A DNA stretch of 64,000 nucleotides, from positions 1,550,001 through 1,614,000 of the forward strand of contig NZ_CP014168.1 of NCBI RefSeq assembly GCF_001717955.1. The letters are read 5' to 3'. Below the pieces are notes generated by a model. The model was not told the origin of the DNA. It made no database searches and saw nothing but the letters and a program-made list of their open reading frames with translations. The stretch comes from Sphingomonas panacis (GTDB lineage Bacteria > Pseudomonadota > Alphaproteobacteria > Sphingomonadales > Sphingomonadaceae). The position numbers and the translations under genes were made by a program. Position 1 is the first letter of the stretch. Every line of letters begins with the position of its first letter. Shown here one piece after another: positions 10,318 through 45,924 of the stretch.

Positions 10318-10424
10318 CCGTTCGTGCTGAGTTTGTCGAAGCACGTGCCCCGGACACGCCCCCTTCGGCTGGCTGGCAAAGCCAGCCGCTCAGGACAGGC
10401 TTCGACAAGCTCAGGGCGAACGGT
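10318..10424. repeat. Palindromic intergenic repeat, copy 2
   Basis: 107 bp with ends CCGTTCGTGCTGAG and CTCAGGGCGAACGG. The inner part (GGCTGGCAAAGCCAGCC) matches copy 1 in reverse orientation. It begins 6 nt after the glycosyltransferase stop and lies between convergent genes. Confidence 0.88.
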
Positions 10425-11796: not shown

Positions 11797-11805
11797 ACGG
11801 GTCTC

Positions 11806-11886
11806 GTCACCCCAGCGAAAGCTGGGGTCTTTTCGGGGAGGGCGTTACGCGCGCCGCAGGGAGACCCCAGCTTTCGCTGGGGTGAC
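11806..11886. repeat. Double-hairpin repeat between secD and secF
   Basis: Two hairpins, each with a 7-bp stem: CCCCAGC-GAAA-GCTGGGG at the left and CCCCAGC-TTTC-GCTGGGG at the right. They are mutually inverted and about 40 bp apart. The whole unit is an inverted repeat of about 81 bp. It resembles a dispersed repeat seen in many sphingomonad genomes (from memory). In the secDF mRNA it could slow exonucleases or adjust the secD:secF ratio. Confidence 0.85.
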
Positions 11887-11896
11887 GGTGTCGGTT

Positions 11897-20385: not shown

Positions 20386-20535
20386 CCGTTCGTGCTGAGT
20401 AGCCGCCGAGTAGCCCGCGCAGCGGGCGTATCGAGGTGGCGTATCGAAGCACAGCCCCCGCGCGGAACCTGTGCTTCGATACGAGCTCTCGATACGGGCC
20501 TTTGGCCCTACTCGATCTCTACTCAGCACGAACGG
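20386..20535. repeat. Palindromic intergenic repeat, long variant
   Basis: 150 bp with perfect complementary ends CCGTTCGTGCTGAG and CTCAGCACGAACGG. Inner paired segments include TCGAAGCACAG with CTGTGCTTCGA, and CCCGCGCAGCGGG. It shares its ends with the copies at 10318 and 45714 but has different inner arms. It lies between the emrB stop and a convergent operon, so it may terminate transcription both ways. Confidence 0.85.
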
Positions 20536-27185: not shown

Positions 27186-30100
27186 ATGGCCCTTACCACC
27201 ATTTCCGTGCGCGGCGCGCGTGAGCACAATCTCAAGAACGTTTCGGTCGATATCCCGCGCGATACGCTGACGGTCATCACCGGCCTCAGCGGCTCGGGCA
27301 AGTCGAGCCTCGCGTTCGATACGATCTATGCCGAGGGGCAGCGCCGCTACGTCGAATCGCTCAGCGCCTATGCGCGCCAGTTCCTCGAAATGATGCAGAA
27401 GCCCGATGTCGACCATATCGAGGGCCTCAGCCCCGCGATCAGCATCGAGCAGAAGACCACCAGCCGCAACCCGCGCTCGACCGTGGCGACCGTCACCGAG
27501 ATCTACGATTACATGCGCCTTTTGTGGGCGCGCGTCGGCATCCCCTATTCCCCAGCCACCGGCCTGCCGATCGCCGCGCAGACCGTCAGCCAGATGGTCG
27601 ACCGCGTCATGGCGCTGCCCGAGGGCACGCGGCTGTACCTGCTCGCCCCCGTCGTGCGCGGCCGCAAGGGCGAGTATAAGAAGGAAATGCTTGAGTGGCA
27701 GAAAGCGGGCTTCACCCGGGTCCGCATCGACGGCGAACTCGTCGAGATCGATGAGGCGCCAGCACTCGACAAGAAGCTCAAGCACGACATCGAAGTGGTG
27801 GTCGATCGCCTCGTCGTGAACCCCGAAAGCGCGACGCGGCTGGCGGACAGCTTCGAAACCGCGCTCAAGCTCGCCGAAGGGCTGGCCTATGTCGATCTGG
27901 TCGATGTAACGGTGGCCGATGTCGGGGGCGGGGGAGCCACCCAACCCCCGTTCGTCCCGAGCGAAGTCGAGGGACAAGCCTCGGACGCTGCGCAGGGTGT
28001 CTCGACTTCGCTCGACACGAACGGGAAGGGAAAGCCCGCCGCCGCCAGCAAGAAGATGAAAGGCACCGGCATCCCGGACAACCGAATCGTCTTTTCGGAA
28101 AAGTTCGCCTGCCCGGTCTCCGGCTTCACCATCGCCGAGATCGAACCGCGCCTGTTCTCGTTCAACGCCCCGCAAGGCGCGTGCCCGGCCTGCGACGGGC
28201 TCGGCGAGAAGCTGCTGTTCGACGAAGACCTCGTCGTCCCCAACCATGCGCTCAGCATCAAGAAGGGCGCGGTCGTGCCCTGGGCCAAGTCCAACCCGCC
28301 AAGCCCCTATTACATGCAGGTGCTCGGCTCCCTTGCGCGCGAATTCGGCTTCAGCCTCGATACGCCGTGGGCGGAGCTGCCGGGCGAAGTCCAGCTCATC
28401 ATCCTCCACGGCACCGGCGGCAAGCCGGTCACGCTCACCTTTATCGACGGACGCAAGAGCTACGACGTCAAGAAGCCGTTCGAAGGCGTGATCGGCAACC
28501 TCAACCGTCGCATGCTCTCCACCGAGAGCGCGTGGATGCGCGAGGAACTGTCGAAATACCAATCCTCCGCCCCCTGCGAAGTGTGCGGCGGCGCGCGCCT
28601 CAAGCCCGAGGCGCTCGCGGTCAAGATCGGCATGCGCGACATTTCCAGCATCACCCATCTCTCGGTGGTCGATGCGCTGGCGTGGTTCACCGCGATCCCC
28701 GCCGAACTCACCGCGCAGCAGACCGCGATCGCCGAGCGAATCCTCAAGGAAATCCTCGAACGCCTCGGTTTCCTCAACAACGTCGGGCTCGATTACCTCA
28801 ACCTCGATCGCACCTCGGGCACCTTGTCGGGCGGCGAGAGCCAGCGCATCCGGCTCGCCTCGCAGATCGGCTCGGGCCTGTCGGGCGTGCTCTACGTGCT
28901 CGACGAACCCTCGATCGGCCTCCACCAGCGCGACAACGACATGCTGCTGGCGACGCTGCGGCGCCTGCGCGATCTCGGCAACACCGTGCTCGTCGTCGAG
29001 CATGACGAGGATGCGATCCGCACCGCCGATTATGTGATCGACATGGGGCCGGGCGCCGGCGTCCACGGCGGCAACGTCATCGCACAGGGCACGTTCGAGG
29101 AAGTGCTCGCCACCGAAGGCAGCATCACCGCCGATTATCTCGCCGGCCGCCGCAGCGTGCCGCTCCCCGCCAAGCGCCGCAAGGGCAACGGCAAGAAGCT
29201 CACCGTCCACAACGCCACCGCCAACAATCTGCGCGGCGTGACGGCGAGCATCCCGCTCGGCACCTTCACCTGCATCACCGGCGTCTCCGGCTCGGGCAAG
29301 TCGAGCTTCACCATCGACACGCTCTATGCCGCCGCCGCGCGCACCCTGAACGGCGCGCGCATCGTCCAGGGCAAGCACGACAAGATCACCGGGCTGCAAT
29401 ATCTCGACAAGGTGATCGACATCGATCAGTCGCCGATCGGCCGCACCCCGCGTTCGAACCCGGCGACCTATACCGGTGCCTTCACCCAGATCCGCGACTG
29501 GTTCGCCGGCCTGCCGGAGTCGCTCGCGCGCGGCTACAAATCGGGGCGGTTCAGCTTCAACGTGAAGGGCGGGCGCTGCGAGGCGTGCCAGGGCGACGGG
29601 CTGCTCAAGATCGAGATGCACTTCCTCCCCGACGTCTATGTCACCTGCGACGTCTGCCACGGCGCGCGCTACAACCGCGAGACTTTGGAAGTGAAGTTCA
29701 AGGGGCTGAGCATCGCCGACGTGCTCGACATGACCGTCGAGGATGCGGTCGAATTCTTCAAGGCGGTGCCGCCGATCCGCGACAAGATGGCGATGCTGGC
29801 GGAAGTGGGCCTCGGCTACGTCAAGGTCGGCCAGCAGGCGACGACGCTCTCGGGCGGCGAAGCGCAGCGGGTGAAGCTGGCGAAGGAACTGTCGCGGCGG
29901 GCGACAGGTCAGACGCTGTATATTCTCGACGAGCCGACGACGGGGCTGCACTTCGAGGACGTGCGCAAACTGCTCGAAGTGCTCCACGCGCTCGTCGAGC
30001 ACGGCAATACCGTGGTGGTGATCGAGCACAATCTCGACGTCATCAAGACCGCCGACTGGGTGATCGACCTTGGGCCTGAGGGTGGCGTTAAGGGTGGCGA

Positions 30101-30188
30101 GATTGTTGCCGAGGGCACGCCCGAGGCGGTGGTGAAGGTGAAGGCGAGCTTTACGGGGCGGTATTTGAAGCCGTTGTTGGGGAAGTAG
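27186..30188 (+). CDS. uvrA: Excinuclease ABC subunit UvrA with in-frame repeat insertion
   Basis: 1000 residues, longer than the usual 940-975. UvrA finds DNA lesions and loads UvrB. Present are ATP site I ([10 protein letters not shown], residues 33-42), a zinc module (FACP ... CPACDG), signature 1 ([19 protein letters not shown]), ATP site II (GVSGSGKSS), the second zinc module (CEACQGDG ... [10 protein letters not shown]) and signature 2 ([18 protein letters not shown]). Residues about 254-280 are encoded by a palindromic repeat located just before the FACP zinc module. ATG at 27186; no Shine-Dalgarno. Confidence 0.97.
27947..28025. repeat. Palindromic repeat inside the uvrA coding sequence
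   Basis: 79 bp: outer arms CCCGTTCGT and ACGAACGGG, inner arms GAGCGAAGTCGAG and CTCGACTTCGCTC. The outer arms are those of the intergenic repeats at 10318, 20386 and 45714. It adds about 26 residues in frame (reading [20 protein letters not shown] and on) to a surface loop of UvrA. Confidence 0.9.
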
Positions 30189-34512: not shown

Positions 34513-34514
34513 TC

Positions 34515-34536
34515 CCCCTCCCGCATGCGGGAGGGG
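34515..34536. repeat. 22-bp perfect palindrome after hslV
   Basis: CCCCTCCCGCATGCGGGAGG plus GG: arms of 11 bp with no loop. The identical sequence recurs at 34591-34612. It starts 3 bp after the hslV stop. Confidence 0.85.
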
Positions 34537-34590
34537 CTAGGGGAGGGCCTGTCCTCCCAAGGCGCCGCCCGCGAACATGCCCTCCCCCGA

Positions 34591-34612
34591 CCCCTCCCGC
34601 ATGCGGGAGGGG
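34591..34612. repeat. 22-bp perfect palindrome before hslU
   Basis: Second copy of the 34515 palindrome. Its right arm (GGGAGGGG) supplies the only Shine-Dalgarno-like purine run before the hslU ATG at 34628, so folding of the palindrome could mask it. Confidence 0.8.
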
Positions 34613-34627
34613 GGAAGAAGAAACCAG

Positions 34628-45713: not shown

Positions 45714-45794
45714 CCGTTCGCACTGAGCTTGTCGAAGTGCGCGCCCCCCAGCGAAGCACCTGTGGCACGTGCTTCGACAGGCTCAGCACGAACG
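45714..45794. repeat. Palindromic intergenic repeat, copy near protease
   Basis: 81 bp with ends CCGTTCGCACTGAGCTTGTC and CTCAGCACGAACGG and inner arms GAAGTGCG and CGTGCTTC. It begins 2 bp after the protease stop and can fold as a long hairpin, suitable as a terminator. Confidence 0.87.
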
Positions 45795-45924
45795 GGGGAG
45801 GGCGGGCGATGCGATCGCGCTGTTGTGACAAAGGCCGCAATTCCGTTGCGCCGGCGTCATGTTTCGCTCGCCAGCATCATGGTTAATGCCCTAGTCTCGC
45901 CCGCGAAGATTGGGGGGCTGATCT

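Follow-up and report, generated by a model that had tools for sequence, protein, structure and literature searches.

A dispersed palindromic repeat read in frame within uvrA of Sphingomonas panacis lies in a linker where palindromes of several types recur

Results

The stretch of Sphingomonas panacis DNA analysed here (the window; 64,000 nucleotides, NZ_CP014168.1, positions 1,550,001 to 1,614,000) carries on its forward strand, at 27186-30188, an open reading frame of 1000 amino acids whose product is UvrA, excinuclease ABC subunit A, as established both by its score against the NCBIfam equivalog model NF001503 (1559.8 bits, cut-off 1147) and by the fold of its predicted model, for which the top Foldseek hits are the solved UvrA structures 3uwx (TM-score 0.83 by query length) and 2r6f. 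A match to the solved interaction domain 3fpn places the UvrB-interaction domain at residues 132-239 (27579-27902), and the invariant columns of a 31-sequence alignment, A1, mark out residues 307-336 (28104-28193; C309, S312, C333 and C336), the region of the first zinc module in the established UvrA structure. Between the two lies a hypervariable linker, residues 247-294 (27924-28067), whose flanks are nearly adjacent in 2r6f, residues 239 and 298 of our protein aligning to chain residues 257 and 259. In an AlphaFold2 model built on A1 (mean pLDDT 78.9), residues 247-294 fall below 50 and have no secondary structure; the linker is therefore predicted to be disordered, low pLDDT being a sign of disorder and no proof of it. 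The nucleotide-binding and zinc-module columns are invariant in all 31 sequences, including those that carry the inserts described below, and the insert-bearing UvrA probably works normally. We also observed that the first zinc module reads C-P-V-S at 28110-28127, against C-P-Y-C in 2r6f; because the serine is invariant across A1, the module is one cysteine short in these sequences.

Within the linker, at 27947-28025, lies a palindromic insert, an inverted dimer with a 77-bp core at 27948-28024. Its arms in the inverted-repeat listing (27947-27971 and 28001-28025) are 25 nt each, 92% complementary and separated by 29 nt. The left half-site (27948-27971, forward strand; genome positions 1577948-1577971) is read as PFVPSEVE and the right one (28001-28024, reverse strand; 1578001-1578024) as STSLDTN, and both match the pattern that we call sub-type B with 0 mismatches. 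A second copy elsewhere in the genome (locus L036) is identical at 72 of 77 positions; since this identity takes in most of the spacer (27972-28000), the spacer is part of the element, which seems to have been copied as a ready-made dimer. Inspection by eye shows no target-site duplication around the uvrA copy, and because 77 bp is no multiple of three, gain or loss of further bases must also have taken place there. Translated, the insert covers approximately residues 255-280, which follow the UvrB-interaction domain and precede the first zinc module; the earlier note on this DNA was thus right to place an inverted repeat in frame within uvrA. Its estimate of about 26 added residues overstates the net gain: 77 amino acids separate the anchors here and 63 in the relative at L063, because a VREAPQ-like native segment present in relatives is missing from the window's loop. 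Among known RNA families, only microRNA models matched the insert, all below their gathering scores, and a 79-bp query for a plasmid origin returned two Sphingobium records (82% and 77% identity), which do not explain the copy.

The half-sites of this element are dispersed throughout the genome. Allowing up to three mismatches, the sub-type B half-site CCGTTCGTNNCGAGCGAAGTCGAG has 87 + 86 sites in the 5,322,941-base genome, and a sister sub-type, A, which carries ..GTGCTGAG.., has 94 + 88 sites at up to two mismatches; reversed-pattern controls gave 0 in each case, and with mismatches allowed the two patterns may share sites. In the window, the outer arm CCGTTCGTNNNGAG (up to one mismatch) has 10 matches against 2.11 expected, including 10318/10410, 20386/20522 and 45714/45782. 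The earlier note held that the uvrA repeat shares its outer arms with the copies at 10318, 20386 and 45714: the outer end is indeed common to them, but those three copies belong to sub-type A and the uvrA copy to sub-type B. They comprise a dimer with a nested further hairpin at 10318-10423 (inverted-repeat listing; locus L030), with no long open frame across it, a pair of halves enclosing another palindrome at 20386-20535 (inverted-repeat listing and arm matches) and a pair of halves at 45714-45795 (arm matches). The window also holds palindromic pairs of two further families that recur inside uvrA of relatives (see below), one of the CGTCACCCCAGCGAAAGCTGGGG family, type E, at 11805-11887 and one of the CCCTCCCGC..GCGGGAGGG family, type C, at 34514-34613.

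To characterise the family we fetched 60 half-site loci, the first exact matches per sub-type in genome order and hence a non-random sample. A simple rule parsed 51 distinct type A/B elements from these, 44 as inverted pairs and 7 as singles, where a few short pairs are perhaps chance or deletions and one pair, in sufC (L008), was scored as single. Among these non-random loci, with open frames judged by GC pattern and by eye, copies interior to genes fell in two genes, uvrA and sufC. At L050, near genome position 1203179, a membrane-protein-like frame terminates with a type B arm, and its C terminus may thus be supplied by the repeat. Nested in the type A dimers at window 10318-10423, L004 and L026 is another hairpin, GGCTGGCTGGC..GCCAGCC, so that one repeat lies within another.

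The uvrA repeat thus has two traits of REP/REPIN elements, a short palindrome in high copy number and a usual arrangement in inverted pairs. A third trait, a cognate RAYT flanked by the repeats, was not found at the one candidate locus of our own genome. Y1_Tnp (PF01797) matched in four of the 40 genomes (G000, G010, G033 and G043), three of them among the 20 carriers of a uvrA insert, and gave no match in the other 36, including 17 carriers, some of these assemblies being drafts and two of the carriers less than 90% complete. The own-genome PF01797 protein is, we assume from its appearance, an IS200-type TnpA; its 3357-bp locus lacks any match to types A, B or E at up to five mismatches and contains one weak five-mismatch match resembling types C/D and F. 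A RAYT as mobiliser was accordingly rejected, and in most carrier genomes the repeat copier is not a detectable Y1 (RAYT/IS200-type) transposase. The sub-type B ends, CCGTTCG..CGAACGG, bear neither GTAG nor terminal CGTC.

We then sought UvrA in 81 genomes of the genus, our own and 80 drawn from a larger group, and obtained 74 readable loops (G006, G007, G015, G020, G062, G069 and G080 gave none). Palindromes occupy the loop in 20 of the 74, always in an open frame, and fall into six types, for which we coined the names A to F: A in three loci (L064, L068, L076), B in three (L066, L067 and the window's own, L061), C, CCCTCCCGC..GCGGGAGGG, in five (L062, L072, L075, L077, L079), D, CCCTCCCCT..AGGGGAGGG, in four (L065, L070, L074, L082), E, CGTCACCCC..GGGGT, in three (L071, L073, L078) and F, CTCTCCCC..GGGGAGAGG, in two (L083, L085). 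As C resembles D and A resembles B, the six types are perhaps four families. The relatives therefore share no non-palindromic loop of a common length, the finding that would have told against the earlier note; lengths and contents vary by species, and many loops hold other palindromes, in frame and in the same place. Judged by eye, a pair of inverted arms of the same type brackets the native V-x-E segment, rather than forming one block, in L062, L067, L070, L072, L077, L079 and L083, as if two nearby insertions had formed a dimer and captured host DNA.

The palindromes are confined to the loop. In 66 of the 74 uvrA genes scanned end to end (eight compact-loop genes lay outside the scan), every family match at up to two mismatches is in the loop; at three mismatches there are further matches in the loops of L063, L071 and L085 and a single one elsewhere, at residue 656 of L066. 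Exact 11-mer inverted pairs in the same genes, overlapping ones counted apart, number 70 inside the loop and 3 outside it (two overlapping in L086, one in L111). Occupancy also follows loop class: compact loops with a PADPVE (34) or PGRE (12) motif have no insert, against 20 of 28 in the remaining, long class (Fisher P 5e-12, relatedness ignored; L090, which has no insert, counts as long here and in the folding analysis and as compact in the tree analysis). Repeat scans of 12 of the 46 compact-loop genomes and all 28 long-loop genomes, in which types A to E were counted and C and D shared one pattern, found five of the 12 to be repeat-rich: G060 has 54 + 61 type A sites, and G022, G018, G034 and G021 have 144, 108, 74 and 67 C/D sites. 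Others of the 12 are poor, for example G055 (0 of A, 1 of C/D, 2 + 4 of E, 0 of B). Carrier genomes hold from 13 (C/D, G045) to 218 (C/D, G054) sites of their insert type, the uvrA copy included, and eight long loops have no palindrome, though G023 and G078, for example, hold many type E repeats. Collectively, these data indicate that the UvrA loop is a recurrent landing site for palindromes of several types in the genus.

We built a UvrA protein tree with the loop cut out. No insert type forms a clade on it, and the changes needed for types A to F (3, 3, 5, 4, 3 and 2; 20 in total) equal the number of rows of each type; strongly supported branches alone force 3, 2, 5, 4, 2 and 2 (18 in total). 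One pair of B rows and one pair of E rows might thus have a common origin where the tree lacks resolution. Sister species differ in their occupant: L064 carries A and L065 D, the one to the left and the other to the right of the native segment or the reverse, and L076 carries A and L079 C. Among three near-identical UvrAs, L069 has no insert, L074 a single D arm and L077 a pair of C arms. On the left, L077 has 24 nt that the other two do not; on the right, L074 and L077 share 12 nt absent from L069, in which the ..EGEG.. at this place may be an eroded copy. A change on the tree could be a gain or a loss; repeated gain is more likely than a single ancestor from which many types were lost on many occasions. 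Insertion into the loop is the reading suggested by these comparisons between species, as no empty and filled pair was seen at strain level. Erosion and slippage could mimic turnover in types C, D and F, which are of low complexity and encode linkers rich in Pro, Gly, Ser and Glu.

The inserts are not read in arbitrary frames. Our frame set comprised 40 arms from 22 elements, the 20 in uvrA and two of type A in sufC; nested elements, three further sufC inserts and the second arms of L076 and L082, both degenerate, were left out. Of the 40 arms, 34 use the least basic frame that is free of stops, and by type the frame held in 5/5 first and 4/4 second arms for A, 3/3 and 3/3 for B, 5/5 and 4/4 for C, 3/3 and 3/3 for D and 3/3 and 3/3 for E, with F as the exception. 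The charges of the 22 elements add up to -17, where open frames chosen at random give +17.0 (sd 8.6; P about 5e-6, taking separate insertions as independent while elements of one type share letters). A preferred DNA target could in part account for the fixed frame. At the nucleotide level, we compared the folding of 120-nt windows with that of shuffles of non-overlapping dinucleotides, which keep dinucleotide content only roughly. Insert loops have a mean z of -4.9, with 15 of 20 below -3, whereas long loops without an insert average -1.1 (0/8 below -3), compact loops +0.24 (0/46) and other uvrA windows -0.31 (4/296).

A second protein shows the same pattern. At L008:1248-2084 (own genome 516408-517244), a gene identified as sufC by its TIGR01978 match contains an in-frame type A dimer. 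We fetched 30 sufC loci from the 81 genomes, with 7 loci escaping the search pattern, and found palindromes of different kinds in the turn GSVTF..DLLELEPHERAAAG in five of the 30 (L136, our own, to L140), with a short turn in 18. The two parts of SufC lie at most about 15 bases apart in 72 genomes, these 18 and six of the seven pattern-missed loci included, and could not be judged in G012, G015, G041 and G043. The type A frame of uvrA is reused in sufC. Further afield, 20 of 28 new family-level UvrA loops (L166-L193), the best-scoring loci and so biased to long loops, contain a perfect inverted repeat 9 bp or more in length, compared with 131 of 1400 letter shuffles. Such a repeat also occurs in 5 of 29 named records (L194-L222; among the best 80 of more than 590 records), those of Sphingobium fuliginis (L199), Blastomonas (L200), Sphingomonas Root720 (L206), Erythrobacter AP23 (L207) and Sphingorhabdus (L217). 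Among the same best 80 records, repeat-like UvrA loops were seen in Devosia (L225) and in a metagenome-assembled genome of Hyphomicrobiaceae (L245). The UvrA-loop pattern may thus reach beyond Sphingomonadaceae.

Discussion

The explanation that we consider likely is ongoing insertion of repeats filtered by what the protein tolerates, the uvrA palindrome being a translated, dispersed REPIN-like dimer in a tolerant linker that six types have re-entered. A sub-type B inverted dimer would have inserted into uvrA in the S. panacis lineage and then been translated, persisting because it fell in frame into the disordered linker that joins the UvrB-interaction domain to the zinc module. Across the genus, palindromes of six or more sequence types would have entered this linker repeatedly. 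Insertions presumably rain on the whole genome, and copies that land in ordered protein or out of frame, or that give a basic or stop-containing peptide, would be lost. The loop would tolerate the remainder, and old copies would erode or be replaced, so that the occupant differs between sister species. The identity of the insert with a dispersed family, its position, the open frame through it, the multi-type loop, the scattered distribution on the tree and the frame bias are direct observations. The earlier note's proposal that such repeats are mobile and tolerated in a surface loop gains support from arms that recur by the hundred in the genome and from a structure model in which the insert lies within a linker of predicted disorder (pLDDT below 50).

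The hotspot could instead be made at the level of DNA, with the site sequence or a resident palindrome drawing in repeats through nesting or recombination and protein tolerance playing a lesser part. By eye, the right arms of L079 and L082 hold a nested unrelated palindrome with two inner hairpins, still in frame, and these nested copies, the arms that bracket V-x-E and the fixed reading phase of each type are what such a process might leave. We nevertheless think it unlikely, given that types of unrelated sequence enter the loop, that insertion points vary by species and fall on either side of the native segment, that the type A frame recurs in another gene and that compact-loop relatives have no insert. 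Selection of the inserts for changing UvrA activity, for example towards weaker repair and higher mutation, would fit a repair gene that is struck repeatedly and echoes a speculation in PMC3733652 on REPs in repair genes. This seems very unlikely against the invariant nucleotide-binding and zinc-module columns of the carriers, insert peptides and orientations that differ, and the same pattern in SufC, which is an ATPase of Fe-S assembly rather than a repair protein.

A role in the mRNA, where a hairpin slows translation or stabilises the message and the peptide is merely tolerated, could draw on the strong folding of insert loops relative to the rest of uvrA. Any palindrome must fold, however, so that folding is no evidence of use, none of the 54 insert-free loops reaches a z of -3, and the constrained reading frame points to the protein; we regard this role as highly improbable. 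Scarcely credible, finally, is that there was no insertion and that a native linker rich in Pro, Gly, Ser and Glu is palindromic by chance. The low complexity of types C, D and F lends this idea what appeal it has, against which stand tens to hundreds of family matches per carrier genome and none in controls, the 72/77 identity to another copy and the confinement of palindromes to the loop; for types A to E, copy number refutes it. Ongoing insertion filtered by protein tolerance remains our preferred account.

A broader proposal, possible though doubtful at present, is that the UvrA linker and one SufC turn serve Sphingomonadaceae, and maybe further Alphaproteobacteria, as a standing safe harbour that unrelated palindromic repeats continue to enter, with some sequence-tolerant mechanism spreading palindromes as such. 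Such a mechanism is suggested by sister species that differ in their occupants and by carrier genomes that mostly have no detectable Y1 transposase. S. wittichii and N. aromaticivorans are both sphingomonads. A 2013 study in BMC Genomics (PMC3733652) counts the two among the hosts of CGTC REPs and describes GTAG/CGTC REPs, often inverted dimers, in frame inside uvrA and other repair genes of bacteria other than Rickettsia, naming uvrA in Thioalkalivibrio and O. terrae. It reported that X. campestris and X. oryzae have different REPs at about the same site of recB, and its authors suggested flexible linkers or loops as the places of intragenic REPs. REPs in frame within uvrA are thus a kind of event already on record, and the earlier note, while overselling its novelty, undersold the loop as a recurrent target of six types.

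The present elements resemble those intragenic REPs in being dispersed palindromes, often inverted dimers, read in frame in genes that include uvrA. They differ in that the inserts which PMC3733652 describes in uvrA, those of Thioalkalivibrio and O. terrae, lie at different sites, whereas here one loop takes six types in 20 genomes of one genus, and in that sub-types A and B have no GTAG or terminal CGTC tag, although type E has CGTC at its start. By description, Rickettsia palindromic elements are likewise dispersed palindromes in frame within genes (PMC10969869, PMC3733652), but they measure about 150 bp, and R. conorii is reported to have 44 of them, spread over unrelated genes (PMC10969869). 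REPINs and REP doublets share the high-copy inverted pairs; those with a RAYT differ from the present case, with PF01797 absent in 36 of 40 genomes and no A, B or E copy beside the own-genome hit. Repeated insertion of several types into the same loop with a frame filter was not found in the literature searched, most subscription papers and supplements lying outside that search, and the supplementary table of intragenic REPs of PMC3733652 may list sphingomonad uvrA cases.

The 2013 study left open whether such repeats still form, which enzyme mobilises CGTC elements and what their presence in repair genes means. The uvrA loop bears on these matters as a clean recorder, since homology marks the native residues, and offers a natural record of where repeats land without breaking the gene. 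Because sister species differ, several repeat types are suggested to have moved recently, and the record suggests that the protein filters inserts by frame and charge, in genomes where the usual candidate transposase is mostly absent. For annotators, length variants of UvrA and SufC in these bacteria can be repeat insertions rather than domains. If the safe-harbour proposal is true, the UvrA and SufC loops would be places to catch the spreading mechanism in the act.
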